From Burkholderia sp. USMB20 (GTDB lineage: Bacteria; Pseudomonadota; Gammaproteobacteria; Burkholderiales; Burkholderiaceae): 64,000 nucleotides of DNA. The translations under genes were made by a program, and so were the position numbers. Each line of letters starts with the position of its first letter. Positions within the stretch are counted from its first letter, which is position 1. The notes beneath the pieces were generated by a model. That model was not told the DNA's origin, searched no databases, and saw nothing but the letters and a program-made list of their open reading frames with translations. Below, piece by piece: positions 43,076-59,154 of the stretch. The DNA lies in the NCBI RefSeq assembly GCF_000949135.2, contig NZ_JTAN02000004.1, positions 1 through 64,000 on the forward strand, written 5' to 3'.

Positions 43076-43108
43076 GGCGCCTTCTCGTCCGTATGGTGAA
43101 TGTCAAAT

Positions 43109-43123
43109 AAGAACACAATTCCA
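43109..43123. promoter_or_regulatory. Putative IclR operator, site a (own promoter)
   Basis: AAGAACACAATTCCA matches the operator TGGAAT-N3-ATTCCA of the neighbouring sites, with an intact right half (ATTCCA) and a degenerate left half. A second overlapping palindrome, AATTCCATACTGGAATT (43118-43134), is also present. Position just before the IclR start fits negative autoregulation. Confidence 0.55.
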
Positions 43124-43183
43124 TACTGGAATTCAAGAGAATTTGCGCGACACCGCCCCCCCGCCGTGGCGCCGCGCTCGCCG

Positions 43184-44590
43184 TCAGTGGCCGGCAGCCC
43201 CGCTCACGGCCACGAACCTTCCGCGATGGCGCGCGCCCTTGAGCAGCACCGCCGCACCGCCCACGGCCGCCGGCACCGCAAGCGCCGCGAAGACCTGGCC
43301 GAAGCTCCAGTTCGCATGGAGCATGGCCGCGCCCAGCATCGCGCCCGCGATGCCGCCGAAACGGCCGACTCCGAGCATCCAGCTCGTCCCGGTGGCCCGC
43401 ATCTCGGTCGGATAGGAGCCGGCCGCCAGCGCGCAGAAGCCCGTATTCGAACCGTTCATGCAGTACCCGATGCCGAACGCGAGCACGCAGATCACGCCGA
43501 ACGGATGAGCCGACACACCCATGTACCAGGCCAGCGCGCCGCCGGCGAGCACGGTCGCGCCGAGCGCGGCGTGCGGATTGAATCGGTCCATCTGCCAGCC
43601 GATCAGCAACGAGCCGACCGTTCCGCCCGCCTGGAACAGCGCGCCGACGATCGCCGCCTCGGCCAGCGAAAACCCCAGACCGCGAATCAGCGTCGGCAGC
43701 CAGTTGCCGAGCAGATAGACGGTCAGCAATCCCGCGAAGTAGCAGATCCACAGCATCACCGTGCCGAATGCATGTTCGCGCGACAGAATCGCGCGAACGG
43801 GGCTGCGCACGTCGCGCACCGGTTCGGCGGACACGAACCGCGTCCGTGCGTCGGCGACCGCCGGCTGTATGCGATTCAGCACGCCGATGAGCCGTGCGCG
43901 GCGCCGCTCCGACAGCGCGAGATACCGCGCCGATTCCGGCAGCCATTTGACGAGGATGGGCACGTACGCGATCGGCAGCACGCCGCCGAGCAGCAGGACC
44001 GAATGCCAGCCCCACGCTTCGATCATCCACGCGCTCACGAAGCCGCCGCCCGCCGCGCCGAACGTGAAGCCGCAGAACACGGCCGTCACCATCAGCGCGC
44101 GCCGCCGCGGCGGCGCATATTCGGCCATCAGCGTGGCCGCGTTCGGCATCGACGCGCCCAGGCCGATGCCGGTCAGGAAGCGCAGCACCGTCAGCGACAC
44201 CACGCCGGTCGCAAACGCCGATGCAATGCTCCACAGGCCGAAGAACATCACCGCGCTGACCATCACCGTCTTGCGGCCGAAGCGGTCGGACATCGGGCCG
44301 GCCGTGAGCGCGCCGAACGCGAGGCCGAGCAGGCCACCGCTCATCACCGGGCCCAGCGCGTCACGCGGAATCGACCACGCGCCGGAAATCGACGGCGCGA
44401 TGAAGCCGATCATTACCGTGTCGAGCCCGTCGAGCATCACGATCAGCATGCACAACACCAGCACGAGCCACTGGAACCGGCCCACCGGCCGCGTATCGAG
44501 AAATTGCTGAACGTCGAGTGAGCGCGCGTCATTCGATTCGCTTTCCTGAATGAAATGTTTCGGCCGTCGGGCCGTCTGCGAGGAAGTCAT
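43184..44590 (-). CDS. MFS transporter, aromatic acid:H+ symporter type (AAHS)
   Basis: A 468-residue 12-span major facilitator. The start at 44590 has GGAGA 7 bases upstream. MVMLDGLDTVMIGFIAPSIS in the first span (with the Asp typical of AAHS) and GPMSDRFGRKTVM between spans 2 and 3 (MFS motif A) support an aromatic or hydroaromatic acid importer such as PcaK, MhpT or a shikimate/vanillate carrier. It is the last gene of the leftward catabolic operon (47932 to 43184). With the ABC importer at 50-55 kb it gives the cluster two uptake systems. Confidence 0.88.
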   Translation of the reverse strand: MTSSQTARRPKHFIQESESNDARSLDVQQFLDTRPVGRFQWLVLVLCMLIVMLDGLDTVMIGFIAPSISGAWSIPRDALGPVMSGGLLGLAFGALTAGPMSDRFGRKTVMVSAVMFFGLWSIASAFATGVVSLTVLRFLTGIGLGASMPNAATLMAEYAPPRRRALMVTAVFCGFTFGAAGGGFVSAWMIEAWGWHSVLLLGGVLPIAYVPILVKWLPESARYLALSERRRARLIGVLNRIQPAVADARTRFVSAEPVRDVRSPVRAILSREHAFGTVMLWICYFAGLLTVYLLGNWLPTLIRGLGFSLAEAAIVGALFQAGGTVGSLLIGWQMDRFNPHAALGATVLAGGALAWYMGVSAHPFGVICVLAFGIGYCMNGSNTGFCALAAGSYPTEMRATGTSWMLGVGRFGGIAGAMLGAAMLHANWSFGQVFAALAVPAAVGGAAVLLKGARHRGRFVAVSGAAGH

Positions 44591-44705
44591 GCTGATGTCT
44601 CCGGAGATGCTGTTCTTGTTGTCGTATCGAATGCCCGATCCGCGCGCCGGCGCGATGCCTGGCGCCGATCGGGCCCGTTGCGTCGAGAAGGCGGCCGCCA
44701 CGCGA

Positions 44706-45539
44706 TCAGGCCGGCACGGCCGCCGCATCGATCACGGCAACGGTGGCTTCACGCAGGCGGCGCGCGCGCTCGACGGCAGGCGTCGTCTTCGCCCACGCCT
44801 CGTTCGGCACCTCGACGCTCACCGGCAGGTGAGCGGGCAGCGCGCGCAGGATGCCCGCAAGGTCGAGACCGCCATCGCCCGGCACCATCCGCGCGCAGCG
44901 TGCCTGGAACAGCAGCGTGTCGACGTCGGTCGGTCGGTCGGCCGGCGCATCGCAGAACTGGACGTAGCCGAAGTACGCGTGCGGCAACGCGCGCAACGCG
45001 TCGAGCGACGAGCCGGCACGATCGAAGTGGATCGGATCGACGATCAATCCGGTGTTGCGCCGGCCGCACGCGTCGACGATGCGCGCGCCGGCGCCGATGT
45101 CCTTCACGTCGGTCCACGGCATCGGCTCCAGCGACGGCGACAGGCCGAGCGGCGCGGCCAGGTCGCACAGCCGGCCGAGCCGGTCGACGGTGCGCGCCTC
45201 GTCGGGATCGTTGCCGGCCACGAGGACGTAGCGCGCGCCGAGCTCCGCCGCCGTTTCGAGCATCGGCAGGTAGTGCGTCACGTCGGTATCGGGCTTCAGG
45301 CGCGCGATCTCGACGTCGAGCACGCGCATGCCCGTATCGCGCAGGACCGCCAGCGTTTCGCGCCTGAGCGGCGTATCGCCGACGATCTCGTGGCGAACCT
45401 CGGTGTCGGTGGCCGGCAGCAGTCGCAGGCCGACGTAGTCGTAGCCGGCGTCGACGGCGCATCGCACCATCTGCGGCGGGCTCAGTTCGAGCACGGTCAG
45501 CGCCGACAGCGACAGCGCGCGGAATTGAGGCTGGGTCAT
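44706..45539 (-). CDS. Sugar-phosphate isomerase/epimerase-fold protein (AP endonuclease 2 family TIM barrel)
   Basis: A 277-residue xylose-isomerase-like TIM barrel. Metal-binding Glu, Asp and His residues fall at LGLSPSLEPMPW, GLIVDPIHFDRAG and FGYVQFCDAP, with VSVEVPNEAW near the end. This fold includes inosose and dehydroshikimate dehydratases as well as sugar isomerases and epimerases. In this cluster, beside an AroE-like enzyme, a dehydratase or epimerase on a cyclic polyol or hydroaromatic acid is plausible. The start MTQPQFRALSL is chosen because the upstream extension is not family-like. Confidence 0.86.
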   Translation of the reverse strand: MTQPQFRALSLSALTVLELSPPQMVRCAVDAGYDYVGLRLLPATDTEVRHEIVGDTPLRRETLAVLRDTGMRVLDVEIARLKPDTDVTHYLPMLETAAELGARYVLVAGNDPDEARTVDRLGRLCDLAAPLGLSPSLEPMPWTDVKDIGAGARIVDACGRRNTGLIVDPIHFDRAGSSLDALRALPHAYFGYVQFCDAPADRPTDVDTLLFQARCARMVPGDGGLDLAGILRALPAHLPVSVEVPNEAWAKTTPAVERARRLREATVAVIDAAAVPA

Positions 45540-45578
45540 ATCGTCTCCTTGAGCGTCATGGCGCACTACGCGGCACGT

Positions 45579-46190
45579 TCAGCGCAACGGCGAAAACGGC
45601 GCGGGCACGCAGATCGTCGATTCCATGGTCGTGAGGTGGGCCGGGCCGCCCTTCGGCGGCCAGATGCCGTCCTTGACCGCTTCGGCGCGAATGCGCGAAC
45701 GCTCGTCCACGCTCGCATACGGCCAGATGTTCAGGAACCGCGGCGTGTCGCCGTCGAGCGCATACATCGCGCCGACCAGCGGCGAGCGGCGGGTGCGCTC
45801 CGGCACCGCCTGCTCCCACACGTCGATCGTGTGCTGCAGGCTGCCGAGCTTCGTGCCGTACACGCGCATCTCGTAGATGCCGCCGTGCACGGCCGGTTCG
45901 ATCGGCGGCAGGAACGGGAACAGCGCATAGCTGGCCGTCTTCACGTCGATGATCGATTCGCCGCAGCCGAACGGGTTGCCTTCGAGCAGCATCCGTTTGC
46001 GCTCGGCGACGAGCGCGGCCTCCGATTCATAACCGCGCAGCACCAGCACCTGACCGAGCGTGCCGATGTCCGAGTACCACGCGCCGAGCAGCCTGCCGCC
46101 GTGCGGATCGCCGCTGGCCTGAATCCCTTCGAAGACCTGCGCGTTCGCGCCGATCTTCACCGTGAGCGTCACTACGTCATACAGTCTCAT
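45579..46190 (-). CDS. NIPSNAP-family protein, two tandem domains
   Basis: A 203-residue protein made of two NIPSNAP-like ferredoxin-fold repeats: MRLYDVVTLTVKIG (first half) and GIYEMRVYGTKLGSL (second half, from about residue 107). Each pairs with a Trp/Tyr region (LLGAWYSDIGTLGQV and PRFLNIWPYASVDERS). Its ATG overlaps the flavoprotein stop by 4 bp. NIPSNAP proteins in bacterial catabolic operons are usually of unknown enzymatic role; a rearrangement or auxiliary function next to the flavoprotein is possible. Confidence 0.85.
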   Translation of the reverse strand: MRLYDVVTLTVKIGANAQVFEGIQASGDPHGGRLLGAWYSDIGTLGQVLVLRGYESEAALVAERKRMLLEGNPFGCGESIIDVKTASYALFPFLPPIEPAVHGGIYEMRVYGTKLGSLQHTIDVWEQAVPERTRRSPLVGAMYALDGDTPRFLNIWPYASVDERSRIRAEAVKDGIWPPKGGPAHLTTMESTICVPAPFSPLR

Positions 46191-47932
46191 TGCGTTGTCC
46201 TCGTGGATGAATCGATGCCGGCACGCGCGGATTCGGGCGCGGCGTCGGCGAGAGAAAGGCCGGCGAGATAACCGAACGTCATCGCCGGGCCGAGTGTGAT
46301 GCCGCCGCTGGGATAGCAGCCGCCCATCATGCTGGCGGAATCGTTGCCGACCGCGTAGAGGCCGGCGATCGCACGGCCGGCGTGGTCGAGCACGCGCGCG
46401 TCGCGGTCGGTGGCCAGGCCCGCGAACGTGCCGAGGCTGCCCGGCAGCAGCTTCACCGCATAGAACGGCCCCGCGTCGATCGGCGCGAGACACGGGTTCG
46501 GCTGCCGGTCGGCATCGCCCTGCACGCGGTTGTACGGCGTCGAGCCCTTGTGAAACGCCGGATCGCAACCCTGCTTCGCGTACTGGTTGTAGGCCGATAC
46601 CGTGTCCACCAGCGAAGCGGCGTCGATTCCGCATTCGCGCGCTAGCGCGTCGAGCGTCGCGCCGCGCTTCAGATAGCCCGAGCGCCGGTACGGGCCGGTC
46701 GGGAACGGAAACGGCTTCGAGAAACCGAGCCCGTAGCGCCGCTGAAAGCGATGGTCGCAGACGAGCCACGCGCACACTTCCTCGCCGGCCGGCGTCGTGT
46801 CGAGCAGCGCGGCAATGAAGTCGTGATACGACGATGCCTCGTTCACGAAGCGCTTGCCCGCGCGTGTCACCGCGATCACGCCCGGCTTCGCGCGTTCGAT
46901 CAGATGCGGAAACGCGACGGCGTCGCCGCCCGGTTGCGGCACCAGCGAGACGGGCGCCCACGCGGCCGGCGCATCGAGCGACCGGTCGAAATGCGCGCCG
47001 ATCGATTCGCCGAGCCGGATCCCGTCGCCGGTATTGCAGAGCGGCGCCGCCGACCAGTGTTCGCGGCCCGACGGCGTATACGCGAACGTCTGCGCACGCC
47101 GCGCCCGATCGTGAGGGAAGCCTCCGCAAGCCAGCACGACGCCGCGCGCCGCGCGCACCTCGTGCACGATGCCGTCGATCGCCACGCGGGCGCCGGTCAC
47201 GCGCACGTCGTCGCGCAGCAGGCCGATCGCCTTCGCATGGGTGCGCAGGTCGACCCCGCGATCGGCGGCCGACTTCAACAGGCGCGCGACGAGCGCATTG
47301 CCGTTGACGAGATGCATCGAGCGCCCGTAACGCAGCTTGTGCCACGCGAACGCGGCCAGCCGGCGGCCGACATGCAGCGCGGAGCTCAGCGAGCGCGTCG
47401 CGCGATAGAAATGCGCGAGATCCTGGCCGGACGCGAGTGCCATCCCCTTGAGCGTCGTCACCGACAGCGGTGTGCGCAGCTTGTCGAGCAGCGGGCCCAG
47501 TTCACGGCCGTCGTACGGCATCGCGCAGACCGAGCGCCCGCCCGTGCCGGCGCCCGGCGTGGTGTGGAAATCGGGAATGCGGTTGCCGTCGACGAAGCGC
47601 AGCGCCGTGTTCCGCTCGAAGAATTCGATCATCTCCGGGCCGCGTTCGAGCAGCGCATCGGCCTTCGCCGCATCGAACTGCGCGCCCAGCTCGTTCTTCA
47701 GGTACGTGCGCGGCGCATCGATGTCCTCGCGAATGCCGGCACGCGTAGCGAGCGGATTGCGCGGAATCCACATCCATCCGCCCGACCACGCGGTGGTGCC
47801 GCCGAACACGGCCTCCTTCTCGGCGACGATCACGCCCAGGCCCCGCGCCGCCGCCGTGACGGCCGCCGCGAGGCCGCCCGCGCCGGAGCCCAGTACCAGC
47901 ACGTCGCAATCGAGTATCGGTTCACGCTTCAT
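46187..47932 (-). CDS. FAD-binding dehydrogenase (KstD / flavocytochrome-c type)
   Basis: A 581-residue flavoprotein. The FAD dinucleotide motif is VLVLGSGAGGLAAAVTAAARG (11-31), then GGTTAWSGGWMWIP. A mid-protein RGVVLACGGFPHD precedes the substrate-domain return, and GLYAVGNDSASMMGG...SGGITLGPAM closes the FAD site. This is the architecture of 3-ketosteroid 1-dehydrogenase and related ring-dehydrogenating or fumarate-reductase-like enzymes. No signal peptide or haem-binding CxxCH is seen. It is the first gene of the leftward operon, directly downstream of two IclR operators. A second family member is at 56313. Confidence 0.9.
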   Translation of the reverse strand: MKREPILDCDVLVLGSGAGGLAAAVTAAARGLGVIVAEKEAVFGGTTAWSGGWMWIPRNPLATRAGIREDIDAPRTYLKNELGAQFDAAKADALLERGPEMIEFFERNTALRFVDGNRIPDFHTTPGAGTGGRSVCAMPYDGRELGPLLDKLRTPLSVTTLKGMALASGQDLAHFYRATRSLSSALHVGRRLAAFAWHKLRYGRSMHLVNGNALVARLLKSAADRGVDLRTHAKAIGLLRDDVRVTGARVAIDGIVHEVRAARGVVLACGGFPHDRARRAQTFAYTPSGREHWSAAPLCNTGDGIRLGESIGAHFDRSLDAPAAWAPVSLVPQPGGDAVAFPHLIERAKPGVIAVTRAGKRFVNEASSYHDFIAALLDTTPAGEEVCAWLVCDHRFQRRYGLGFSKPFPFPTGPYRRSGYLKRGATLDALARECGIDAASLVDTVSAYNQYAKQGCDPAFHKGSTPYNRVQGDADRQPNPCLAPIDAGPFYAVKLLPGSLGTFAGLATDRDARVLDHAGRAIAGLYAVGNDSASMMGGCYPSGGITLGPAMTFGYLAGLSLADAAPESARAGIDSSTRTTQ

Positions 47933-47990
47933 GTTCAGTCCTGCCCGTTCAGTGTCTCCAACGCCGGATGCGACACGATCGCGACGCCTA

Positions 47991-48023
47991 TGGAATATCA
48001 TTGCGAAGTGGAATACTATTCCA
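47991..48023. promoter_or_regulatory. Putative IclR operators, sites b1 and b2 (divergent promoter)
   Basis: b1 is TGGAATATCATTGCG (47991-48005, degenerate right half). b2 is TGGAATACTATTCCA (48009-48023), embedded in the 19-bp palindrome AGTGGAATACTATTCCACT (48007-48025). Centres are 18 bp apart. They lie in the 138-bp divergent region between the flavoprotein operon and the epimerase-type gene, so one cluster of sites could control both. Confidence 0.75.
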
Positions 48024-48070
48024 CTCAATCGGATTTCGCAAAGACTTTGTGACGACAGGGAGGCAATGCA

Positions 48071-48967
48071 ATGCGAGTACTGGTAACGGGCGGCAGCGGT
48101 TTTCTCGGCGCATGGATCATCAGGAGGCTGCTGGCGCGCGGCATGGAATGCGTGAGCTTCGACGTGCGCACGAACCCGCGCCTCGTCGAGGCGCTCGCGC
48201 CCGAACGGGCTGCGGCCGTACGCTGGCGCACCGGCGACATCGCCGACGCGGCCGCCACGGCGCACGCCTTCGACGGCTGCGACGCGGCGATCCATCTCGC
48301 AGGCATCCTCACGCCCGACTGCGCGGCCGATCCCGTGCGCGGCGCGCGGGTCAACCTGATCGGCACGCTGAACGTATTCGAGGCCGCACGCTCGGCCGGG
48401 CTGCGACGCGTGCTCTATGCGAGCAGCGCCGGCGTATTCGGCCCCGACGACGGCGCCGTGCCGTTGCCGCAAACCCACTACGGCGCGTTCAAGCTGGCGT
48501 GCGAAGGATCGGCGCGCGCGTACTGGCACGACCACGGGATCGCGAGCGTGGGCTTCCGTCCGCTCGTGGTCTATGGGGCCGGACGCGAGACCGGATCGAG
48601 CGCGGGGCCGAGCCTGGCCTGTCGGGCGGCCGCGCGCGGCGAGCGCTACACGATTCCGTTTACCGGCGCGACGGGCCTCGTGTTCGCCGACGACGTCGCC
48701 GCCGCTTACGAGGCCGCGCTGCTGGCCGACATCGAAGGCGCACACGCCTTCACGCTGGCGGGCGAGATCACCCCGGTGAACACACTGATCGAACGGATCG
48801 CGGCCCTCGTGCCGGGTGCGCACATCGATGCCGGCGGCCCGCCGCTGCCGATCGCGACGGCGTTCCCCGACGACCCCGCGCTCGACCGCCTGCTGCCCGG
48901 CCTGCCGCGGACCGCGCTCGACGACGGACTGCGGCAGACGGTGGCGTTCTACCGGCGCCAGCGCTAG
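48071..48967 (+). CDS. NAD-dependent epimerase/dehydratase-family oxidoreductase (extended SDR)
   Basis: A 298-residue extended SDR. It shows the NAD motif VTGGSGFLGAWIIRRL, YASSAGVFGP with the catalytic Ser, and Tyr/Lys in THYGAFKLACEG (about 138-146). Such proteins act on nucleotide sugars, lactones or ring alcohols. It is the only rightward gene of the divergent promoter; the convergent Gfo/Idh gene ends 21 bp after it. Role in the pathway is unassigned. Confidence 0.88.
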   Translation: MRVLVTGGSGFLGAWIIRRLLARGMECVSFDVRTNPRLVEALAPERAAAVRWRTGDIADAAATAHAFDGCDAAIHLAGILTPDCAADPVRGARVNLIGTLNVFEAARSAGLRRVLYASSAGVFGPDDGAVPLPQTHYGAFKLACEGSARAYWHDHGIASVGFRPLVVYGAGRETGSSAGPSLACRAAARGERYTIPFTGATGLVFADDVAAAYEAALLADIEGAHAFTLAGEITPVNTLIERIAALVPGAHIDAGGPPLPIATAFPDDPALDRLLPGLPRTALDDGLRQTVAFYRRQR

Positions 48968-48988
48968 GCCGGCGCCCGCTCCCCGCGG

Positions 48989-50035
48989 CTACGCGACGAC
49001 GTCCGCGGGTGCAACGCCCGTGCGCGTCGCAGCCGCGCGATGCACGGCGAGCGTCGCCGCGAGCGTGCGCGCGGCGTCGTCGGCCGGACACAGCGGCGCC
49101 TCGGCGCCCGCGATCACCGCCGCGAAGTGGCGCAACTGCTCGTGATACGGATCGGCGCCATGCGGCGTGCAGCGCTCGACCGTCAACGGATCGTGCCAGC
49201 CCTTCCCGCTGCGGTATTCCCACAGATCGAGCTGCGGCAGCGTGAGCGACGCATCGGTGCCGATCAGGAAATGCGTGTTCACCTGCTGGCGCGGATAGTG
49301 CGCGGCCTCGCCCGCCGCGAGATCCCAGTTCCACGGCGAGGTCGCGCAGTCGGACACGGCCAGCGTGCCGAGCGCGCCGCTGTCGAAGCGCAGCAGCACG
49401 GCGGCCGTGTCTTCCACGTCGAAGCCGCGCACGCGATTGGACGCCTGGGCCTGCACCTCGACGATCTCGCCGAGCAGGAACCGCATGATGTCGATGTCGT
49501 GAATCAGGTTGATCAACACCGGGCCGCCGCCCGCGCGACGACGCCATTCGACGTCGAAATACGCATCGGGCTTGTAGAACGTCGCGAGCGCATTGGCCGC
49601 GACGGGCTTGCCGAGCCGCCCCGACTGCACGATCTCTCGCGCGCGCCGCAAGATCGGATTGTGGCGGCGATGGTGGCCGACCAGCAGCGGCACGCCGGCT
49701 TCGCGTGCGGCGCGACCGAGGCCCGCCGCCGCCGCGACGCTGTCCGACACCGGCTTCTCGATCAGCGCCGGCACGCCGCGCGCGATGCAGGCAAGGCCGA
49801 CCTCGACATGCGTCGCATTCGGCGTCGCGACGATCGCGCCGTCCGGGCGCATCGCGTCGAGCATCGTCGCGTAGTCGGCGAACCAGCGCAGCCCCTCGGC
49901 ACGCGCGAACTGCTCGGCCGCCGGCGACGGATCGGCGATCGCCGCGACTTCCACCTGCGCATGCGTGCGCGCGCGCTCCACGTGCATCCGCCCGATTGCG
50001 CCTGCACCGATCACTGCCAGCCGTCTTCTTGCCAT
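48989..50035 (-). CDS. Gfo/Idh/MocA-family oxidoreductase
   Basis: A 348-residue NAD(P)-dependent oxidoreductase. The N-terminal Rossmann domain has AVIGAGAIGRMHVERA; the catalytic signature EKPVSDS is at about 93-99. The C-terminal alpha/beta domain has the active-site His in LINLIHDIDIMRFLLGE. The family oxidises sugars, inositols and related cyclic polyols. It is transcribed toward the epimerase-type gene from a promoter region shared with the ABC importer (site c at 50137). It probably oxidises the imported compound or an intermediate. Confidence 0.9.
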   Translation of the reverse strand: MARRRLAVIGAGAIGRMHVERARTHAQVEVAAIADPSPAAEQFARAEGLRWFADYATMLDAMRPDGAIVATPNATHVEVGLACIARGVPALIEKPVSDSVAAAAGLGRAAREAGVPLLVGHHRRHNPILRRAREIVQSGRLGKPVAANALATFYKPDAYFDVEWRRRAGGGPVLINLIHDIDIMRFLLGEIVEVQAQASNRVRGFDVEDTAAVLLRFDSGALGTLAVSDCATSPWNWDLAAGEAAHYPRQQVNTHFLIGTDASLTLPQLDLWEYRSGKGWHDPLTVERCTPHGADPYHEQLRHFAAVIAGAEAPLCPADDAARTLAATLAVHRAAATRTGVAPADVVA

Positions 50036-50136
50036 CGCTTCATCTCCGTTGTGCGGGGCGTACGTGTCGCGTCGAGCCGTTCGTCTTCCGGATCGACCGG
50101 GTGAATACCCCGATTTATTGAAACCATCTTTGATTG

Positions 50137-50151
50137 TTGAATGCTATTCCA
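50137..50151. promoter_or_regulatory. Putative IclR operator, site c (divergent promoter of ABC importer and Gfo/Idh gene)
   Basis: TTGAATGCTATTCCA keeps the right half ATTCCA and most of the left half of TGGAAT-N3-ATTCCA. It lies in the 214-bp divergent gap, 99 bp before the binding-protein start and 102 bp before the oxidoreductase start. Confidence 0.6.
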
Positions 50152-50249
50152 CTTCTAACCATAATTCACGAAAATTCGACACGTGTCGCGCGGCCCGCCC
50201 ACGGACCGCACGGAATCGAACCTTGACCAGGAAACAGGAGGCCAGACAC

Positions 50250-51548
50250 ATGACTGATCAGCACGAGCAGAACGACACCCTTTCCGGCGCCCCGGCAGAC
50301 GTGCCCGACCACCCGGCGGCGTCGCGCCGCGCGTGGCTCGTCACCGCGGGCAAGGCGCTCGCGGGCGGGGCCGCGGCGCTCGCCGCGCCGGCGATCGTGC
50401 GCGCGCAGGGCGAGCAACCGCTGAAGCTGGGCCTGCTGATGGCCAAGCAGGGTGTGTGGACCGAACAGGGCGAAGTGATCGCGAACGGCGTCAAGCTCGC
50501 GCTCGACGAGGCGGGCAACCAGGCGCGCGGCCGGCGCGTCGATCTCGTCTGGTACGACGAACCGAACCCGCAGTCGGCGCAGCAGAACATGCAGAAGCTC
50601 GTCGAGCAGGACCACGCGATCGCGGTGATCGGCGGCACGAACAGCGGCACGTCGCTCGCGATGTCGTCGGTCGCATGGCGCACCAGGACGCCTTACATCG
50701 CGCCGAACGCCGCCGCGCGCGAGCTGACCGGCAGCAGTTGCAACCCGTACACGTTCCGCGTGCTGAGCCCGACGCCCGTCGCATGCCGCGCACTCGCACC
50801 GTCGATGCTCGCGATCGGCAAGAAATGGCACTTCCTCGTCGCGAACTATGCGTACGGGCAGGACATTCAGCGCGCGATGTCCGACTTGTTGAAACAGGCC
50901 GGCGGCGTCATCACCGGCGCCGACGTCACGCCGCTCAACACCACCGACTTCAGCTCGTTCATCCTGAAGATCCGCCAGTCGAAACCCGATGTCGTGCTGC
51001 TCGGGCTGCCGGGCGGCGACCTGTCGACGTTCCTGAAGCAATACGCGGAAATGGGCATGAAAGGCCGCATCCCGGTGGCGTGCCCGATCATCGGCGACTC
51101 GGATCTCTGGTCGATCAACGCCGACGCCGCCACCGGCTACTACGGCAAGCCGTGGCATTTCAGCTCGCCGGGCCATGCGCCGGAAGAAGTTGCGTTCATC
51201 AGGAAGTACACGGCGAAGTACGGCAAGCCGCCGGCCGACAAGGCCTGGATCGGCTGGTTCACGGCGCGCGCACTGCTGCAGGCGATCAACCACGCGAAGA
51301 GCACGTCCGGCGCGGACATCGTGCAGAGCCTGGAGACCATTCAGCTCGCCGACGGCAGCGGCGCCGCCTACTTCCGCCCGTGGGACCACCAGTTGTTGCG
51401 GCGCTGGAGCGTGTTCAAGGTGAAGGACCGGATCGGCGACAAATGGGACTGGCTCGACCCGATCTCCGTCGTGCCGCAGAACCCCGGCGACCTCGACCGT
51501 CTGTTCGGCACACGCGAAGAGATCGGCTGCAAGATGGCCGCGCGCTGA
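50250..51548 (+). CDS. Branched-chain-type ABC transporter substrate-binding protein (LivK-like)
   Basis: A 432-residue periplasmic-binding protein type I. The N-terminus is long and polar for about 25 residues, then SRRAWLVTAGKALAGGAAAL and an AxA site before QGEQPLKLGLL. That is a twin-arginine-like export signal. The mature chain has the LivJ landmarks VIGGTNSGTSLAMSSVAW and GYYGKPWHFSS. It heads the importer operon (SBP, LivH, fused LivMGF, AroE-like). LivK-like proteins commonly bind amino acids but also aromatic or alicyclic acids and amides. Confidence 0.9.
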   Translation: MTDQHEQNDTLSGAPADVPDHPAASRRAWLVTAGKALAGGAAALAAPAIVRAQGEQPLKLGLLMAKQGVWTEQGEVIANGVKLALDEAGNQARGRRVDLVWYDEPNPQSAQQNMQKLVEQDHAIAVIGGTNSGTSLAMSSVAWRTRTPYIAPNAAARELTGSSCNPYTFRVLSPTPVACRALAPSMLAIGKKWHFLVANYAYGQDIQRAMSDLLKQAGGVITGADVTPLNTTDFSSFILKIRQSKPDVVLLGLPGGDLSTFLKQYAEMGMKGRIPVACPIIGDSDLWSINADAATGYYGKPWHFSSPGHAPEEVAFIRKYTAKYGKPPADKAWIGWFTARALLQAINHAKSTSGADIVQSLETIQLADGSGAAYFRPWDHQLLRRWSVFKVKDRIGDKWDWLDPISVVPQNPGDLDRLFGTREEIGCKMAAR

Positions 51549-51655
51549 GCCCGCGCGCCGCCGCCAAGCGTATCCCGCGCGCGTCGCGGCCCGCCGCTCG
51601 CCCGTCACGACGGGCCGCGGCGCGGCGGCGGCGAGCCGCACTCTGGAGTAAGGGC

Positions 51656-52525
51656 ATGGCTGAAATGTTGTTGTCCCAGGTCGCCAACGGACTGGTGCTG
51701 GGATTCCTCTATGTATTGCTCGCGATCGGACTGTCGATCATCTGCGGGCTGCTGGGCATCGTGAATTTCGCGCATGGCGCGCTCTTCGCGCTCGGCGCGT
51801 ATTTCGCGATCGCACTGTCGACGCAGTTCGGATGGGCCGCCGTCGTGCTCGCACCGGTGCTCGTCGCGGCGGTGGGCATGCTGATCGAAGTGGTGTTCAT
51901 CCGGCGCCTGTACGGCAAGGAGCCGCTCCTCGGCCTGATCGTCACGTTCGCGCTGTCGCTGCTGCTCACCGCACTGGTTCGCCTCGTGTGGGGCGCGGGC
52001 GGGCTGCCGTTCAGTCCGCCCGGGATGCTCAACGGGTTTCTCGTATACGGGCCGCTGCTGATCACGAAGTATCGACTGTTCGTGCTCGCCGCGACGATCG
52101 CGATCCTCGTCGTGCTGTGGTGGTTCATGAACTACACGCCATACGGGCGGATCCTGCGCGCCGGCAGCCGCGATCCTGAAATGGTCGGCCTGCTCGGCAT
52201 CAACCTGCCGCGCGTGCTGACCGGCGCGTTCGCGCTCGGCGCGCTGCTGGCGGGTGCCGCGGGCGTGCTCGCGGCGCCGCTCGTCACGGTCACGCCGGGG
52301 ATGGCGACGACCGCCGTGATGCCCGCGTTCGTGATCGTCACGATCGGCGGGCTCGGCTCGTTCGCCGGTGCGGTGGTCGCGGGCCTGCTGGTCGGCATCG
52401 CAACCGCGCTGGCCGTCCAGTTCTTTCCGGCGGCCTCGTCGGTCGCGATGTACGCGCTGATGGCACTCGTCCTTCTCGTGCGCCCTCGCGGGCTGTTTGG
52501 TGAACGCTGGGAGCGCTTCGAATGA
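51656..52525 (+). CDS. livH: Branched-chain-type ABC transporter permease (LivH-like)
   Basis: A 289-residue permease with about eight membrane spans. LSIICGLLGIVNFAHGALFALG is the typical LivH opening, and GILRAGSRDPEMVGLLGINL is the cytoplasmic coupling loop. The ATG at 51656 follows GGAGTAAGG. Its stop overlaps the start of the fused LivMGF gene by 4 bp. It should heterodimerise with the LivM part of that fusion. Confidence 0.91.
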   Translation: MAEMLLSQVANGLVLGFLYVLLAIGLSIICGLLGIVNFAHGALFALGAYFAIALSTQFGWAAVVLAPVLVAAVGMLIEVVFIRRLYGKEPLLGLIVTFALSLLLTALVRLVWGAGGLPFSPPGMLNGFLVYGPLLITKYRLFVLAATIAILVVLWWFMNYTPYGRILRAGSRDPEMVGLLGINLPRVLTGAFALGALLAGAAGVLAAPLVTVTPGMATTAVMPAFVIVTIGGLGSFAGAVVAGLLVGIATALAVQFFPAASSVAMYALMALVLLVRPRGLFGERWERFE

Positions 52526-55077
52526 AATTCGACTATCTGACCCGCCATCCGGTTGCAGTGCTGACCACCGCGCTCGTCCTCGTGTCGCTTGCCCTCACCG
52601 CGACCGGCACGCCGCTCGAGCGCGCAACCCAGATCGCGATCTACACGCTCTACGGGATGGGCGTGAACCTGCTGGTCGCGTATACGGGGCTCGTCCCGTT
52701 CGGCGCATCGGTGTTCTTCGGCACGGCCACGTACCTGGTCGCCGTGTCGCTGCTGCGCGTGCTGGGCAACGAGCTGCTCGCGCTGGCGGCCACCGTGATC
52801 GTGACGACCGTGCTCGCCGCGCTGATCGGCGCGGTTGTGTTGCGCCGGCGCGGGCTCTACTTCTCGCTGCTCACCCTCGCCTGTTCGCAGATCGCGTTCG
52901 AGATCGCGTTCAAGTGGACCGATGTGACCGGCGGCGAAAACGGCCTGCAGAACGTGCCGCGCCCGACCTTCCCGACGACCGTCGGCTTCCACGTATTCGC
53001 ATGCGTGACGGTGATCGCCATCGCCTGTCTGCTATGGCGCCTCGTGCACGCGCCGTTCGGACGGGCGCTGCAGGCACTGCGCGACAACGAGCAGCGCGCG
53101 GCGAGCCTCGGCTACGACACGTATCGGCTCAAGCTGCGCGCGTTCGTGATCTCGGCTGCCGTGATCGGCTATGCGGGCGGCCTGCTGTGCCTGATGCTGC
53201 AGGGCGCGTACGCGAACAACCTGAGCTGGGAGCACGCGGGCGACAGCCTGCTGATGACCGTGCTCGGCGGTGTCCACCAGTTTCTCGGGCCGCTGTGGGG
53301 CGTGATTGCGTTCATCCTGCTCGAAGACAAGCTCAGCAGCCTGACCGAGCACTGGTGGCTGATCTTCGCGCCGATCGTCATCGCGTTCGCGTTCTTTTCG
53401 CCCGAGGGCATCCACGGCATCGCGCAGCGGCTGTTGCGACGTCCGCGCTGGACCCTCGTGCGCGACACGATTCCCGCGCGCCCCGCCACGATCGCGCCGT
53501 ATCGCGCGGGCGGCGTCGAGACCGATCCCGCCACGCCCGTGCTGAGCGTGCGCGGATTGACGAAGCGTTTCGGCTCGCTCGTGACCGCCGAACGGATCGA
53601 CCTCGACGTCCATCCGTGCCGGCTGCACAGCTTCATCGGCCCGAACGGTGCGGGCAAGACCACGTTCTTCAACATGCTGACGGGCGTGCTGTCGCCGACG
53701 GCCGGCACGATCACGTTCGACGGCAAGGACGTGACGAAGCTCGCCATGTTCCGCCGCGTGCGGCTCGGCATGAGCCGCTCGTTCCAGATCCTCAGCGTAT
53801 TTCGCAATCTCACCGTGTTCGAGAACGTGCGCGTCGCGGTGCAGGCCGCGCAGCACGATCGCCTCGGCCTGTGGCGCGACGCGCACACGCTCGGCGAACA
53901 GAACGAGATGACCTGGTCGCTGCTCGCGGCGGTCGGGCTGGCCGAGCGCGCGGCGCATGGTTGCGAAAGCCTGTCGCACGGCGAGCAGCGCCTGCTCGAA
54001 ATCGCGCTGTCGCTCGCGACTCGCGCACGCCTGCTGCTGCTCGACGAGCCGCTCGCGGGGCTTGCCGAAGCCGACCGCGTGCGCGTGGCGGCGATCATCC
54101 GCGAGCTGGCGAACCATCACGCGGTGCTGCTGATCGAGCACGACATCGATCGCGTGCTGACGATTTCCGATCGCGTCAGCGTGCTCCATCGCGGCCGGCT
54201 GATCGCCGACGGCTCGCCGGCCGAAGTCGCGCGCCATCCCGAGGTGATCGAAGCCTACCTGGGCCACGCGAAGGGCGAGCGGCCGGTCGATGCGAGGCTG
54301 GCCGCCCGACGCGGCGCACAGCACGAAGATGCCGCACCGGCACGCCGCCCGCTGCTGCGCCTCGAAGGCGTGAAGGCCGGTTATACCGGCAACACGATCC
54401 TCGACGGCATCGACCTCACGCTCCACGAAGGCGAAGTGATCGCGATCCTCGGACGCAACGGCGTCGGCAAGACGACGACGTTGCGCGCCGCGACCGGCGT
54501 CGCCGACGTGACGGCCGGGCGCATCGTGTTCGACGGCCACGACATCACCGGGCGCCCCGCGCACGAGATCAATCGACTCGGCCTCGCGATGGTCCCCGAG
54601 GGCCGCCGCCTGTTCCCGAACCTCACGGTCGCCGAGAACTTGCGGCTCGCCGCACGCAAGGGCGGCGCGAGCGTCGACGAGATGTTCGCGCTGTTCCCGC
54701 GACTCGCGACGCGCAAGGATGCGCGCGCCGAACATCTGTCCGGCGGCGAACGACAGATGGTGGCGATCGCGCGCGCGCTGATGGCGCCGGCGAAGGCGAT
54801 CCTGCTCGACGAACCGTTCGAGGGGCTCGCGCCCGCCGTCGTACAGGAAGTGCTCGACGCGGTAGTCAAGCTGCGCGAGCGCGCGAGCGTCGTGATCGTC
54901 GAGCACCAGGCCGACATGGTGCTGCCGATCGCGGATCGCGCGTACGTGCTCGTCAACGGTCGCGTCGCGCACGAAAGCAGCGCAGTCGCGCTCGAACAGG
55001 ACACCGCCACCCAGGCGCAATTGCTCGGCATCGTACACGACGAGGCCGGTTCCACCCAGGAGATGAAAACAGCATGA
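52522..55077 (+). CDS. Fused ABC permease and two ATPases (LivM-LivG-LivF in one chain)
   Basis: An 851-residue protein with three normally separate subunits. Residues about 1-310 are a LivM-type permease (NLLVAYTGLVPFGASVFFG and the loop QALRDNEQRAASLGYD). Residues about 335-585 are a LivG ATPase (Walker A GPNGAGKTT, signature LSHGEQRLLEIA, Walker B LLLLDEPLAGL). Residues about 610-850 are a LivF ATPase (GRNGVGKTT, LSGGERQMVAIA, ILLDEPFEGL). The frame is continuous with no stop at either junction, and linkers are Pro/Arg/Ala-rich. The whole importer thus needs only three genes. The stop overlaps the AroE-like start by 4 bp. Confidence 0.92.
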   Translation: MKFDYLTRHPVAVLTTALVLVSLALTATGTPLERATQIAIYTLYGMGVNLLVAYTGLVPFGASVFFGTATYLVAVSLLRVLGNELLALAATVIVTTVLAALIGAVVLRRRGLYFSLLTLACSQIAFEIAFKWTDVTGGENGLQNVPRPTFPTTVGFHVFACVTVIAIACLLWRLVHAPFGRALQALRDNEQRAASLGYDTYRLKLRAFVISAAVIGYAGGLLCLMLQGAYANNLSWEHAGDSLLMTVLGGVHQFLGPLWGVIAFILLEDKLSSLTEHWWLIFAPIVIAFAFFSPEGIHGIAQRLLRRPRWTLVRDTIPARPATIAPYRAGGVETDPATPVLSVRGLTKRFGSLVTAERIDLDVHPCRLHSFIGPNGAGKTTFFNMLTGVLSPTAGTITFDGKDVTKLAMFRRVRLGMSRSFQILSVFRNLTVFENVRVAVQAAQHDRLGLWRDAHTLGEQNEMTWSLLAAVGLAERAAHGCESLSHGEQRLLEIALSLATRARLLLLDEPLAGLAEADRVRVAAIIRELANHHAVLLIEHDIDRVLTISDRVSVLHRGRLIADGSPAEVARHPEVIEAYLGHAKGERPVDARLAARRGAQHEDAAPARRPLLRLEGVKAGYTGNTILDGIDLTLHEGEVIAILGRNGVGKTTTLRAATGVADVTAGRIVFDGHDITGRPAHEINRLGLAMVPEGRRLFPNLTVAENLRLAARKGGASVDEMFALFPRLATRKDARAEHLSGGERQMVAIARALMAPAKAILLDEPFEGLAPAVVQEVLDAVVKLRERASVVIVEHQADMVLPIADRAYVLVNGRVAHESSAVALEQDTATQAQLLGIVHDEAGSTQEMKTA

Positions 55078-55922
55078 CAGCCCCCTTGACCCCGACTGCC
55101 CCGGTTTCGCTCGACGAAGGCCTGAGCGGTGCGACCCGCATCCATTTCATCGTCGGCGATCCGATCGCGCAGGTCCGTTCGCCGAAAGGCGTGACGGCCG
55201 CGCTGCGCGAGGCCGGACTCGACGCGCTGGTCGTTCCCGCTCATGTCGCACCGGACGATCTTGCGGCGTTCTTCGCGGGCATCACACCGATGCGCAACGT
55301 CGACGGCGTGATCATCACCGTGCCGCACAAATTCAGCGCCGCCGGGTTCTGCTCGCGCCTGTCCGATGAAGCGGCATTCCTCGGCGCGGCGAATACGCTA
55401 CGACGCACCGCCGAAGGCGGCTGGCACGGCGGCATGTTCGACGGCACCGGTTTCGTCGCCGCGCTCGGCGACGAAGGCTGCGACCTGCGCGGCAAGCGCG
55501 CGCTGCTGGTCGGCGCGGGCGGCGCAGGCTCGGCGATCGGCCATGCGCTGGTGATGGCGGGTGTCGCGTCGCTCGACGTGCGCGACAACGATGCCGCCCG
55601 CACCGCGTCGCTGGTCGAGCGGCTGGCCACGCTGCAACGCGGCACGGTGCGCGTCGCCGGCGCGGAGGTCGCAGCCGAATCGTTCGACGTGATCGTCAAT
55701 GCGTCGCCGATGGGCATGCGGCCGGACGATCCGCTGCCCGTCGACGTCTCGCGCGTGCCGGCCACCGCGTTCGTCGGCGACGTCGTCACGAAGCCGCCGC
55801 TCACGCCGTTCATCGAGGCAGCGCGTGCTCGCGGTTGCCGAACCGTCACGGGCACGCAGATGTTCGCGCGGGTCTGCGATCGAATGGTCGCATTCCTGGT
55901 CGATACCGATACCGCCGCCTAA
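55074..55922 (+). CDS. Shikimate/quinate dehydrogenase-like protein (AroE family)
   Basis: A 282-residue AroE-fold protein. The substrate domain has FIVGDPIAQVRSPKGVT and the catalytic Lys in VIITVPHKFSAAG (about residue 85), with the paired Asp in GMFDGTGFV. The NAD(P) motif is LLVGAGGAGSAIGHAL, and IVNASPMGM is the usual following block. The canonical SxSxSP substrate loop is altered to AQVRSP, so the substrate may not be shikimate itself. It is the last gene of the importer operon and translationally coupled to LivMGF, so a catabolic rather than biosynthetic role is likely. Confidence 0.88.
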   Translation: MTAPLTPTAPVSLDEGLSGATRIHFIVGDPIAQVRSPKGVTAALREAGLDALVVPAHVAPDDLAAFFAGITPMRNVDGVIITVPHKFSAAGFCSRLSDEAAFLGAANTLRRTAEGGWHGGMFDGTGFVAALGDEGCDLRGKRALLVGAGGAGSAIGHALVMAGVASLDVRDNDAARTASLVERLATLQRGTVRVAGAEVAAESFDVIVNASPMGMRPDDPLPVDVSRVPATAFVGDVVTKPPLTPFIEAARARGCRTVTGTQMFARVCDRMVAFLVDTDTAA

Positions 55923-56203
55923 GTGCATGTGGACAGGTCGCGATCGTCATGCGCGGCGCGGCCTGCCGAATCGTTTCCGCCGAACGACGGTGACGCGGCG
56001 TGCCGCGCCGCCGTTCCTGCCTGCCTCATCACGACCATCCGACGACAACCCATGCATCCCGGGCGTACCTCGCCCGGGCGCCTGGCGCGCAGCGCCGCCC
56101 GGCTCGCCGCCGCACCGGCGTCGACGCGCAGCCAGTTCGCAGCCGGTGTGGGCAGCGTGCACCGGTTCTGAACGAAGTCGCGCTTCGTCTCTCGATCATA
56201 TTT
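55923..56203. other. Intergenic region after the importer operon
   Basis: No gene. A GC hairpin CCCGGGCG (56058-56065), loop, CGCCCGGG (56071-56078) could act as a terminator, but there is no T-tract. Confidence 0.4.
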
Positions 56204-56246
56204 CGGAACACTATTCCACTTTGTTGTTTATTGGAATAACATTCCA
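56204..56246. promoter_or_regulatory. Putative IclR operators, sites d1 and d2 (flavoprotein/aldo-keto reductase operon)
   Basis: d1 is CGGAACACTATTCCA (56204-56218) and d2 is the perfect TGGAATAACATTCCA (56232-56246), with centres 28 bp apart in an AT-rich patch. They lie 67-109 bp before the start of the second flavoprotein gene. Sequence and pairing resemble sites b1/b2, supporting common control. Confidence 0.75.
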
Positions 56247-56312
56247 AAACGGTCGAAGCCTCTTCCGCCACGCGCCGAATCCGGACGTGCGGCGGAACGA
56301 AACGAAGGAGAC

Positions 56313-58109
56313 ATGGACATGGCTGCAGTGCAACAGGGTTGGGACGAAGAGGTGGACCTGCTGGTGTTCGGCGCAGGTGCGGCGGGCATGACCGCCGCGC
56401 TCGTCGCGCATCACGAGGGGCTCGCCGTCCTGATATGCGAAAAAACCGCCGCGGTGGGCGGCATCACGTCCACGTCGGGCGGCACGACCTGGGTGCCGGG
56501 CACACGCTTGAGCGTCGCCGCGGGCGTGCCCGACAGCGTCGACGATGCGCGCCGCTTCCTGCAGTCGGTGGTCGGCGCGCGCGGCGGCGACGACGCGCGC
56601 GAAGCATTTCTGCAAAGCGGCCCCGACGCGATCGACGAACTCGCGCGCATCAGCGACGTGAAGTTCGTCGCCGCCACCGCACATCCCGATTACGTCAACG
56701 GCCCGGGCGCGGCCTACGGCGGCCGGGCGCTCGTGCCCGCGCCGTTCGATGCGCGCGTGCTCGGCCGCGCGTTCGCGCGCGTGCGCCCGCCGCGCAAGGA
56801 ATTCATGGGCCTCGGCGGCATGATGGTCGCGCGTGCCGACCTCAATGCGCTGCTCGCGCCGTTCGCGTCCGTCGCGAACTTCAAGCGCACGATCGCGGTC
56901 GTCGGGCGCTATGCGATGGATCGCCTGCGTTTTCCGCGCGGCACGCAGCTGGTGATGGGCAACGCGCTCGCCGCCCGGCTCTATTACAGCCTGCTCAAAC
57001 GCCAGGTCGAGATTCGCTTCGACACGCCGCTGCTCGAACTGGTACGCGAGAACGGCCGCGTCACCGGCGCCATCGTCACGACACCGGATGGCGGTCGCAA
57101 GCGAATCGGCGCGCGGCGCGGCGTGGTGCTCGCGACCGGCGGCATCGCGCGCCATCCGTCGCTGCGCCGGCAGTTCTTCCCTGCCGCGGCCCAGCCGCTG
57201 TCGCTGTCGCCGAATACGCATACCGGCGACGGCGTCGACCGCGCACAGCGCGTCAATGCGCGGGTCGAAAACGGCGGCGACAGCCCGGGGCTGTGGATGC
57301 CGTGTTCGATCCGCCGCGCACCGGGCGCCCCCCCGGGCGGCGACGGCGACAGCGTCTGGCCGCACATCATTCTCGATCGCGCGAAGCCCGGCCTCATCGC
57401 GGTCAACAGCCGCGGCGAGCGCTTCGTCAACGAATCGAACTCGTACCACGACTTCGTGATGGGCATGCTGCGCGACAGCGGCAACGGTCCGAGCGTGCCC
57501 GCCCATCTGATCGTCGATGCGGCGTTCATTCGCACCTATGGCCTCGGCCTGCTGATGCCGGCGCGCAGTGCGGCCCGCATCGCCGAATTCGAACGCGCCG
57601 GCTATCTGGTGAAAGGTGCAACGCTGGCCGAGCTGGCGGCTAAGTTGCAGGTGGACGCGAACAGTCTCACGCGCACCGTCGCGACCTACAATCGCGACGC
57701 CGCCAATGGCGAGGATCCGGCATTCCAGCGCGGCAGCAGCCCGATGAGCCGCTTCAACGGCGATCCGGCGCAACAGCCGAATCCGTGCATCCGCCCCATC
57801 GGCGCCGGCCCCTACTATGCGCTGACCGTATGGCCGGCCGATCTCGCGTGCAGCGCGGGGTTGAGCGGCACGGCGAACGGCGAGGTGATCGATGTCGACG
57901 GGCGCGTGATCCCCGGCCTGTTCGCGTGCGGCAACGATCTCGCGTCGATCTTCCGCGGCACGTACCCCGGCCCCGGCACGACGCTCGGCCCGGCCATCGT
58001 ATTCGGCTGGCGCATCGCGAAGTTCGTCGCGCGACGCGAAGCGGCATCGACGGGCACATCACCCGCGGCCGCGGTGCACCGCTCGACCTGCGACAGCGCG
58101 CAACGCTGA
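56313..58109 (+). CDS. FAD-binding dehydrogenase (KstD / flavocytochrome-c type), second copy
   Basis: A 598-residue paralogue of the flavoprotein at 46187. It has the FAD motif LLVFGAGAAGMTAALVAHHEG (14-34), then GGITSTSGGTTWVPG, a mid-chain GVVLATGGIARHP, and GLFACGNDLASIFRGTYPGPGTTLGP at the end. AAGGAGAC precedes the ATG. The two copies differ strongly in the substrate domain, so they probably act on different intermediates. It has its own operator pair upstream and an aldo/keto reductase 62 bp downstream. Confidence 0.9.
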   Translation: MDMAAVQQGWDEEVDLLVFGAGAAGMTAALVAHHEGLAVLICEKTAAVGGITSTSGGTTWVPGTRLSVAAGVPDSVDDARRFLQSVVGARGGDDAREAFLQSGPDAIDELARISDVKFVAATAHPDYVNGPGAAYGGRALVPAPFDARVLGRAFARVRPPRKEFMGLGGMMVARADLNALLAPFASVANFKRTIAVVGRYAMDRLRFPRGTQLVMGNALAARLYYSLLKRQVEIRFDTPLLELVRENGRVTGAIVTTPDGGRKRIGARRGVVLATGGIARHPSLRRQFFPAAAQPLSLSPNTHTGDGVDRAQRVNARVENGGDSPGLWMPCSIRRAPGAPPGGDGDSVWPHIILDRAKPGLIAVNSRGERFVNESNSYHDFVMGMLRDSGNGPSVPAHLIVDAAFIRTYGLGLLMPARSAARIAEFERAGYLVKGATLAELAAKLQVDANSLTRTVATYNRDAANGEDPAFQRGSSPMSRFNGDPAQQPNPCIRPIGAGPYYALTVWPADLACSAGLSGTANGEVIDVDGRVIPGLFACGNDLASIFRGTYPGPGTTLGPAIVFGWRIAKFVARREAASTGTSPAAAVHRSTCDSAQR

Positions 58110-58171
58110 CGAACGCGCCGGCACGGCACGCGCAGGCCGCGCCGGCTCACCCCATCGAGAAGGAGTCGTTC

Positions 58172-59002
58172 ATGCAACGCATCGTCAACCGCCATCGATT
58201 GAACATGCCGAAACTGGGGCTCGGCACATGGCCCATGCTCGGCGACGAATGCACGCGCGCGGTCGCGCTCGCACTGGAGTCGGGTTATCGCCATATCGAT
58301 ACCGCAGCCGCGTACGAGAACGAAGCGGCGGTCGGCAACGCCATCGCCGCTTCGAACGTCCAGCGCGAGCAGATTCACGTGACCAGCAAGGTATGGTGGG
58401 ACCAGTTGAACCCCGAACGCATGCGGAAATCGCTCGACGACACCTTGCGCGCGCTGCGCTGCGACTACGTGGACCTGTTCCTGATCCACTGGCCGGCGCC
58501 CGACTGGAATCTTGCCGAGACGATCGACACGCTCGTTTCGTTCAAGGAGCAGGGACGCGCCCGAGCGATCGGCGTCGCGAACTTTCCGCTTGCGCTGTTG
58601 CGCGCCGTCGTCGAACAGATGCAGGCGCCACTGGCCGCGATACAGGTCGAGTATCACGTGCTGCTCGGTCAGGCGCGGCTGCTGCAATTCGCGCGCCAAC
58701 ATGACATGGCGCTGATCGCGTACAGCCCGCTCGCGCGCAACCGCGTGTCGGAGATCCCGGAACTGCAGCGGATCGCCGACAAGCATCGCGTGCTGCCGAG
58801 CCAGGTGGCGCTGAAATGGCTGCTCGACCAGCCGAACGTGGCCGCCGTGCCGAAGGCGGCCGGGCAACGCAATCAGCTCGCCAATCTGGCATCGCTCGAC
58901 GTGAACCTGGACGACGCTGATCGTGCACTGATCGCCGGCCTGCCGAAGAATCAGCGACTCGTGAGTCCGGCGTTCGCGCCGCAGTGGGATCCGGCCGTGT
59001 AA
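58172..59002 (+). CDS. Aldo/keto reductase
   Basis: A 276-residue (beta/alpha)8 NADPH-dependent reductase. The catalytic tetrad is visible: Asp and Tyr in GYRHIDTAAAYENE, Lys in VTSKVWWDQ, His in FLIHWPAP. The cofactor-binding end has AAVPKAAG. It is similar in size to 2,5-diketo-D-gluconate reductase-type enzymes (275-280). AAGGAG lies 8 bp before the ATG. It is the last gene of the operon starting at 56313 and would interconvert a carbonyl and an alcohol in the same pathway. Confidence 0.9.
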   Translation: MQRIVNRHRLNMPKLGLGTWPMLGDECTRAVALALESGYRHIDTAAAYENEAAVGNAIAASNVQREQIHVTSKVWWDQLNPERMRKSLDDTLRALRCDYVDLFLIHWPAPDWNLAETIDTLVSFKEQGRARAIGVANFPLALLRAVVEQMQAPLAAIQVEYHVLLGQARLLQFARQHDMALIAYSPLARNRVSEIPELQRIADKHRVLPSQVALKWLLDQPNVAAVPKAAGQRNQLANLASLDVNLDDADRALIAGLPKNQRLVSPAFAPQWDPAV

Positions 59003-59125
59003 GGAACAGCGTGTGGGTCGGCGATCGTTGCGGGCACGGGATGAATCGCGACTTCGGCACGCCTGTCGCCCACGCCGCGCCGCCCTTCACCTGGGTGCCG
59101 GCCCGATCACGGGCGCCGGAACCGA

Positions 59126-59154
59126 TCGGCGTCGACGAAATCAGTCGACGCCGA
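59126..59154 (+). terminator. Strong hairpin downstream of the aldo/keto reductase operon
   Basis: TCGGCGTCGAC, loop GAAATCA, GTCGACGCCGA form a perfect 11-bp stem. It lies 124 bp after the reductase stop in otherwise gene-free DNA (59003-59357). No T-tract follows, so it may be a protein-dependent or processing terminator, or an operator-like palindrome. Confidence 0.4.

Follow-up and report, generated by a model that had tools for sequence, protein, structure and literature searches.

The binding-site consensuses of two Escherichia coli regulators of the IclR family, IclR (the acetate/glyoxylate operon repressor) and AllR (the allantoin repressor), both contain TGGAA-N5-TTCCA (table 1 of PMC8222616). 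Sites with the sequence TGGAAT-N3-ATTCCA recur in a 64,000-nucleotide stretch of Burkholderia sp. USMB20 (contig NZ_JTAN02000004.1, positions 1 to 64,000; the whole stretch is called the window below), at promoter regions of a 13-gene cluster (42212-59002) that includes a gene for an IclR-family protein (42212-43075). We consider it likely, with good confidence, that these sites are the operators of the adjacent IclR-family protein and that this protein is most probably a repressor of the cluster; binding, repression, tetramer formation, operon limits and inducer are what we infer from the sequence. This reading is based on the co-occurrence of motif and regulator in nearly all of 45 orthologous loci, the rarity of perfect motifs and the agreement of the motif with the IclR-family type. 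A preliminary description of this DNA had proposed an IclR regulon of about 14 genes with paired sites in two regions. The regulon remains the best reading, and repression can now be proposed from the overlap at the importer-type promoters; the gene count is 13, all four promoter regions have a partner element, and the site at 43109 has a three-box form.

Relationship to the IclR and AllR systems

The regulator has an N-terminal HTH_IclR and a C-terminal IclR_C domain, the architecture of the IclR family. It scored below every NCBIfam cutoff listed (the best was BhcR, 139.9 against 350), and by these cutoffs it is not an orthologue of E. coli IclR, AllR, KdgR, PcaR/PcaU/PobR or BhcR. The box of E. 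coli IclR, TGGAAATNATTTCCA, resembles the present one in its length of 15 base pairs (bp) and its outer halves TGGAA/TTCCA, and the two proteins share the domain architecture. As here, a site is found just upstream of the regulator's own gene (TGGAAATCATTTTCA in K-12, one mismatch). The two systems differ in their target genes and in the inner bases of the box (T-A-N-T-A here, A-T-N-A-T there), and the proteins share 71 of 250 aligned residues, with an equivalog score of 117.5 against a cutoff of 380. The AllR box, KTTGGAAWAWTWTTCCAAC, has TGGAA-N5-TTCCA and an AT-rich core in common with the sites described here, whereas the proteins are identical at 81 of 252 aligned residues (score 112.5, cutoff 406). 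In a control, two perfect AllR-type sites were recovered in the K-12 allA-gcl region. The recognition helix regions of the three proteins are alike (IPRSGTHRLL here, LPNSTTHRLL in IclR and LPLSTTFRLL in AllR).

Among the groups of IclR-family sites defined by Suvorova and Gelfand (2021, PMC8222616), the sites share with group 2 the TGRAA...TTYCA halves at 15-16 bp overall, but not the inner CA-N1-2-TG of its consensus, since their core is of the TA-N-TA type. The same study predicted three-box sites in 32 orthologous groups and tandem sites 18-22 bp apart in 94, with a lesser excess at distances of three and four turns (PMC8222616); tandem spacing in this range, the excess near three or four turns and three-box sites are all shared by the present set. 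IclR-family regulons with Liv-type importers and with quinate/shikimate genes are also described in PMC8222616; the present cluster has a Liv-type importer and a shikimate/quinate dehydrogenase-like gene. The string TGGAA does not occur in the main text of PMC6449761.

The putative operators and their conservation

On both strands of the window, TGGAAT-N3-ATTCCA has six matches at up to two mismatches, against 0.64 expected (mean of 100 dinucleotide shuffles), and none of the 100 shuffles reached six. These matches start at 48009 and 56232 (no mismatch), 50137 (one), and 47991, 56204 and 52518 (two each). At three mismatches, where 7.85 matches are expected, the window has 16 (a count that no shuffle reached), and lone matches at this level therefore say little. 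Five of the six sites listed earlier are among the matches at up to two mismatches, while the sixth, 43109, has three. The earlier statement that the sites are AT-rich in GC-rich DNA was borne out (the GC content of the window is 66.8%), and the statement that they are confined to intergenic regions needs a qualification for the match at 52518, which lies at the junction of the livH/livM-type genes. We rejected 52518 as an operator: none of the fetched relatives covering that junction had a match there at up to two mismatches.

The element at 43109 was also rejected as a copy of the palindrome, on its three mismatches. It has a three-box form, reading TTGAATTCC-AGTA-TGGAATTGTGTTC on the minus strand, and consists of three half-sites of alternating direction. 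The pattern TTGAATTCC-N4-(T)GGAAT-N2-TGTTC (minus strand) was matched upstream of iclR in 43 of the 45 orthologous loci, where it begins 58-64 bases ahead of the iclR start codon; it was missed in L014, where the first box is absent, and in L039, whose central box is altered.

The 45 loci were collected by a search with the IclR protein and come from Burkholderia, Paraburkholderia, Caballeronia and Pararobbsia. Sites at up to one mismatch number 82 in these loci, 38 without any mismatch, whereas five permuted palindromes gave 0, 0, 1, 0 and 1 sites, and 1, 1 and 0 turned up in three Markov simulations. At least one such site was found in 42 loci, and two of the other three (L009 and L044) hold two-mismatch sites. 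Sixty-eight of the 82 sites lie upstream of a cluster gene and two inside a match to a cluster gene; the remaining 12 were left unassigned by the script, which mapped the cluster genes. Eight of these 12, all from Caballeronia (at about 4.84-4.95 kilobases (kb) in their loci), precede another flavoprotein, which is 42-43% identical to flavoprotein 2 of the cluster; in Caballeronia loci such as L017 (4846-6620), an additional flavoprotein with about 41-44% identity to flavoprotein 2 lies directly behind the operator. The other four are near the left ends of L016, L021 and L023. Where the gene order is rearranged, the sites still precede the same genes, such as the AroE-like genes (18 loci). In the alignments of the promoter regions, column conservation rises over the operators of iclR (46 sequences), Gfo/importer (21) and flavoprotein 2 (12); it is less clear over that of flavoprotein 1 (43 sequences), for which loci with differing neighbours were mixed.

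Each of the four promoter regions has a second element, at about 18 bp for 43109, 48009 and 50137 and at 28 bp for 56204/56232. The difference between the two spacings is one helical turn. The window's own partners of 43109 and 50137 are degenerate; in some relatives the latter (50155 in the window) is a clear TGAAC...GTTCA palindrome. Of 40 orthologous sites that end in ATTCCA, 32 have a TTCYA half at precisely +18, and none has one elsewhere between +2 and +49. On the opposite side of the full sites, no TGGAA-type half was found at 18 bp in 72 sites, and the partner there is therefore one-sided. Fifteen loci have pairs at 18 bp, a few pairs are spaced by 17, 25 or 53 bp, and pairs at 28 bp occur in 12 loci (L006 and L046 to L056; the partner in L050 has three mismatches), some loci being from the same genomes. 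The 28-bp pair of L054 precedes an iclR-like gene, and its second member, TGGAAATTATTTCCA, fits the E. coli IclR consensus exactly. This locus (G008, Pararobbsia) is a second, diverged copy of the cluster, whose IclR protein shows 52% identity. We also put forward, tentatively and as less probable than not, a conserved graded code read by a tetramer, in which each full palindrome is joined at a constant 18 or 28 bp by a single or decayed half, the importer-type hexamer doubles as operator half and -35 element with the partner on the -10, and each promoter of one alicyclic-acid regulon is given a different strength.

Mode of action and identity of the binding protein

The scan for sigma-70-type promoters gave one match in the region, TTGAAT-17-CATAAT at 50137, with 0.9 expected by chance. 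We count it as support because its spacing is fixed in relatives, not from the scan alone. Among 50 TTGAA(T/C) sites from the window cluster and the 45 loci, 36 have a -10-like hexamer (at least four of six matches to TATAAT, with A at position 2 and T at position 6) at exactly 17 bp, and every other spacing from 10 to 30 gave at most 4 of 50. The imperfection of the operator at 50137 may be explained by a hexamer that serves both the polymerase and the repressor, with the tandem partner lying over the -10. Of 36 flavoprotein-type operators, 30 are preceded by a CTTKGC-like box at a distance of 19-20 bases; the box is a weak match to the -35 consensus and, if used as a -35, would put a TAGTAT-type -10 inside the operator. 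The promoter geometry predicted at both types of site favours repression by occlusion.

In the mechanism that we propose, the IclR protein would repress its own gene and five neighbouring transcription units, delimited by gene order: flavoprotein 1/NIPSNAP/TIM barrel/symporter; the epimerase; Gfo/Idh; the importer with the AroE-like gene; and flavoprotein 2 with the aldo/keto reductase. One dimer would bind TGGAAT-N3-ATTCCA and a second the weaker element about 18 bp away, or at flavoprotein 2 the element at 28 bp, one turn farther, the two dimers probably forming a tetramer. At the importer-type promoters, a protein bound over the -35- and -10-like hexamers would block RNA polymerase. The repressor may be released by an imported ring acid resembling shikimate, quinate or oxocyclohexane carboxylate, or by a compound formed from that acid, and this release would switch on uptake and oxidation together.

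The local IclR protein might instead bind the same sites as an activator or a dual regulator in the manner of PcaU and PobR, which act as activators; we judge this unlikely. The three-box element at the iclR promoter is of the form reported for PcaU, PobR and HmgR (PMC8222616), and the best match of the regulator among solved structures is a Pca-regulon protein (8eju), but the importer-type operators lie on the -35- and -10-like hexamers and not upstream of them, and boxes of the TGGAA type belong in E. coli to IclR and AllR, both annotated as repressors.

How closely sites and regulator go together was assessed in relatives' genomes, on which the earlier idea of a self-contained regulon rests: there, perfect sites are rare, and a few of them lie outside the cluster. 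Forty-four genomes of relatives (that of L004 was left out) hold 57 perfect sites, 0-3 each, with at least one in 39. Five of the 57 are in fetched regions without any cluster gene (L058 to L062). Three further perfect sites are at G023:C10, G010:C78 and G042:C23, of which the latter two would fall some 16 kb from iclR, provided that their contigs are those of L011 and L043. Among 65 Burkholderia genomes, an iclR orthologue of at least 86% identity was found in seven and one further homologue at 47%, and 28 perfect sites occur in 18 genomes. The seven genomes with the orthologue account for 17 of these sites (15 within about 15 kb of iclR, two elsewhere), and the other 58 for 11, one each in 11 genomes. 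No cluster gene was found at L063 to L065, which represent perfect sites in genomes without the orthologue. Each of the seven orthologue genomes has the composite TGGAA-N5-TTCCA-N13-TTCCA once, and none of the 58 others has it. Two more distant IclR homologues, at 47% and 52% identity, are likewise adjoined by such sites. In L057 (9587-10725, from G088), the 47% homologue is divergent from a flavoprotein of 56% identity, with TGGAATTGAATTCCA and TGGAACAAACTTCCA between them. The perfect palindrome TGGAATCCGATTCCA (or its complement) recurs off the cluster in G051, G052, G053, G077, G081, G093 and G102; the G051 copy is L063.

Several points weigh against the assignment of the sites to a local repressor, or limit it. 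The inner T-A-N-T-A is unlike both published consensuses, of IclR and of AllR, and in the K-12 control no site at up to one mismatch was found upstream of aceB. With two mismatches allowed, the 45 loci gave 111 sites, against 1-18 for permuted palindromes, which calls for caution on the weak sites of the window, and L014 lacks both a site and any recognised cluster gene. A good -10 at 17 bp is missing from 14 of the 50 TTGAA-type sites (three have the A and the T with three matches, and 11 fail), and the CTTKGC box from six of the 36 flavoprotein-type sites. The co-occurrence may be partly linkage and is no independent proof of binding, since related genomes were compared and regulator and sites are passed on within a single cluster. 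The substrate is guessed from enzyme families. Finally, the IclR query gave 22-61 first-look candidate stretches per Burkholderia genome, and IclR paralogues could bind the same boxes.

The last count, and the single perfect sites kept by 11 of the 58 genomes without an orthologue, would suit a different binder, namely an IclR-family or other regulator whose gene lies elsewhere, with the linked iclR serving other genes. We think this very improbable: iclR is itself preceded by a related element, the composite is present in 7 of 7 genomes with the orthologue and in 0 of 58 without it, and one of the 11 sites, in G088, lies about 300 bases ahead of the 47% homologue. That the sites are chance AT-rich palindromes without a regulatory role is hardly credible. 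In favour of chance, 43109 as first described is one of 16 three-mismatch matches where about eight are expected; against it, no shuffle equalled the window count at two mismatches, permuted palindromes gave 0-1 sites where the motif gave 82 in relatives, and the sites are conserved at four promoter regions.

The gene cluster and its likely function

The genes of the cluster and the candidate operators are listed in Table 1.

Table 1. Genes of the cluster and putative regulatory elements in the window
Feature	Position	Strand	Basis
IclR-family regulator gene, 287 amino acids	42212..43075	-	HTH_IclR 2.7e-16, IclR_C 3.6e-31
Putative three-box operator upstream of iclR	43109..43141	-	TTGAATTCC-N4-TGGAATTGTGTTC within; three-mismatch fit to TGGAAT-N3-ATTCCA
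PcaK-like aromatic acid/H+ symporter of the major facilitator superfamily (MFS); start inferred	43184..44590	-	MFS_1; PcaK model 497.6 bits, below cutoff 770
TIM-barrel isomerase/dehydratase-like enzyme; start inferred	44706..45539	-	AP_endonuc_2 1.7e-20; weakly like QuiC, IolI
NIPSNAP-family protein; start inferred	45579..46190	-	NIPSNAP 1e-26
Flavin adenine dinucleotide (FAD)-dependent dehydrogenase 1 (flavoprotein 1), ketosteroid-dehydrogenase type	46187..47932	-	NF004789 852.8 bits, above cutoff 747
Putative partner operator, one good half (TGGAATATCATTGCG)	47991..48005	+	Two mismatches; 18 bp from 48009 site
Putative perfect operator, divergent flavoprotein 1/epimerase promoter	48009..48023	+	No mismatch; conserved
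Short-chain dehydrogenase/reductase (SDR)/epimerase-type gene	48071..48967	+	Epimerase 9.9e-35
Gfo/Idh/MocA oxidoreductase	48989..50035	-	GFO_IDH_MocA 2.5e-24
Putative operator, divergent importer/Gfo-Idh promoter; left half TTGAAT also -35-like	50137..50151	+	One mismatch
Putative degenerate tandem partner over -10-like hexamer	50155..50168	+	Sequence context in relatives
ATP-binding cassette (ABC) importer substrate-binding protein	50250..51548	+	Like branched-chain amino acid-type binding proteins
LivH-type permease	51656..52525	+	BPD_transp_2 2.4e-35
Permease fused to two ATPase domains (LivM-G-F type)	52522..55077	+	BPD_transp_2 4.2e-33; ABC_tran 7.9e-61, two stretches
Shikimate/quinate dehydrogenase-like (AroE-like) gene; start inferred	55074..55922	+	PDB 4k28 5.7e-42
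Putative operator, first of 28-bp tandem pair	56204..56218	+	Two mismatches; 28-bp pair in relatives
Putative perfect operator, second of 28-bp tandem pair	56232..56246	+	No mismatch; conserved block
FAD-dependent dehydrogenase 2 (flavoprotein 2)	56313..58109	+	FAD_binding_2 3.4e-81
Aldo/keto reductase (final cluster gene); start inferred	58172..59002	+	Aldo_ket_red 8.5e-51 for 58229-59002

Flavoprotein 1 matches a 3-oxosteroid 1-dehydrogenase structure at 7e-99. For the AroE-like gene the family is clear and the scores are below the equivalog cutoffs, and the TIM-barrel enzyme reached 33.6 bits with the QuiC model (cutoff 1200). As the flavoproteins are like ketosteroid and oxocyclohexane-carboxylate dehydrogenases, and as the cluster adds a shikimate-dehydrogenase-like enzyme and a TIM barrel weakly like QuiC and IolI, the enzyme families suggest the oxidation of a six-membered ring acid. 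An annotated relative from Paraburkholderia (L066) has the same gene set without the MFS symporter and the aldo/keto reductase, and with an extra SDR gene. In Paraburkholderia phymatum STM815, a DNA match on NC_010625 covers 53% of window positions 42000-60000.

Two observations were made elsewhere in the window. Positions 1-2435 contain long tandem arrays with units of 171, 213 and 96 bp, apparently in the gene of a repetitive, perhaps surface-exposed protein, and at 27066-27761 an ABC-transporter ATPase appears to be split over two open frames (ABC_tran in one, AAA-type in the other), possibly by a frameshift or as a pseudogene.

We found no earlier account of this cluster in titles and the opening lines of abstracts; the supplementary tables for 181 groups in PMC8222616 may hold a prediction. 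As far as these titles and abstract openings show, this is an undescribed regulon of a well-known kind of bacterial gene control, and it leaves the knowledge of the IclR family unchanged. For Burkholderiaceae, many of which have this uncharacterised catabolic cluster in common, it would provide a compact, testable regulon that ties the regulator to its likely targets, and its 18- and 28-bp tandem operators form a natural set for studying how IclR-family proteins read spacing.

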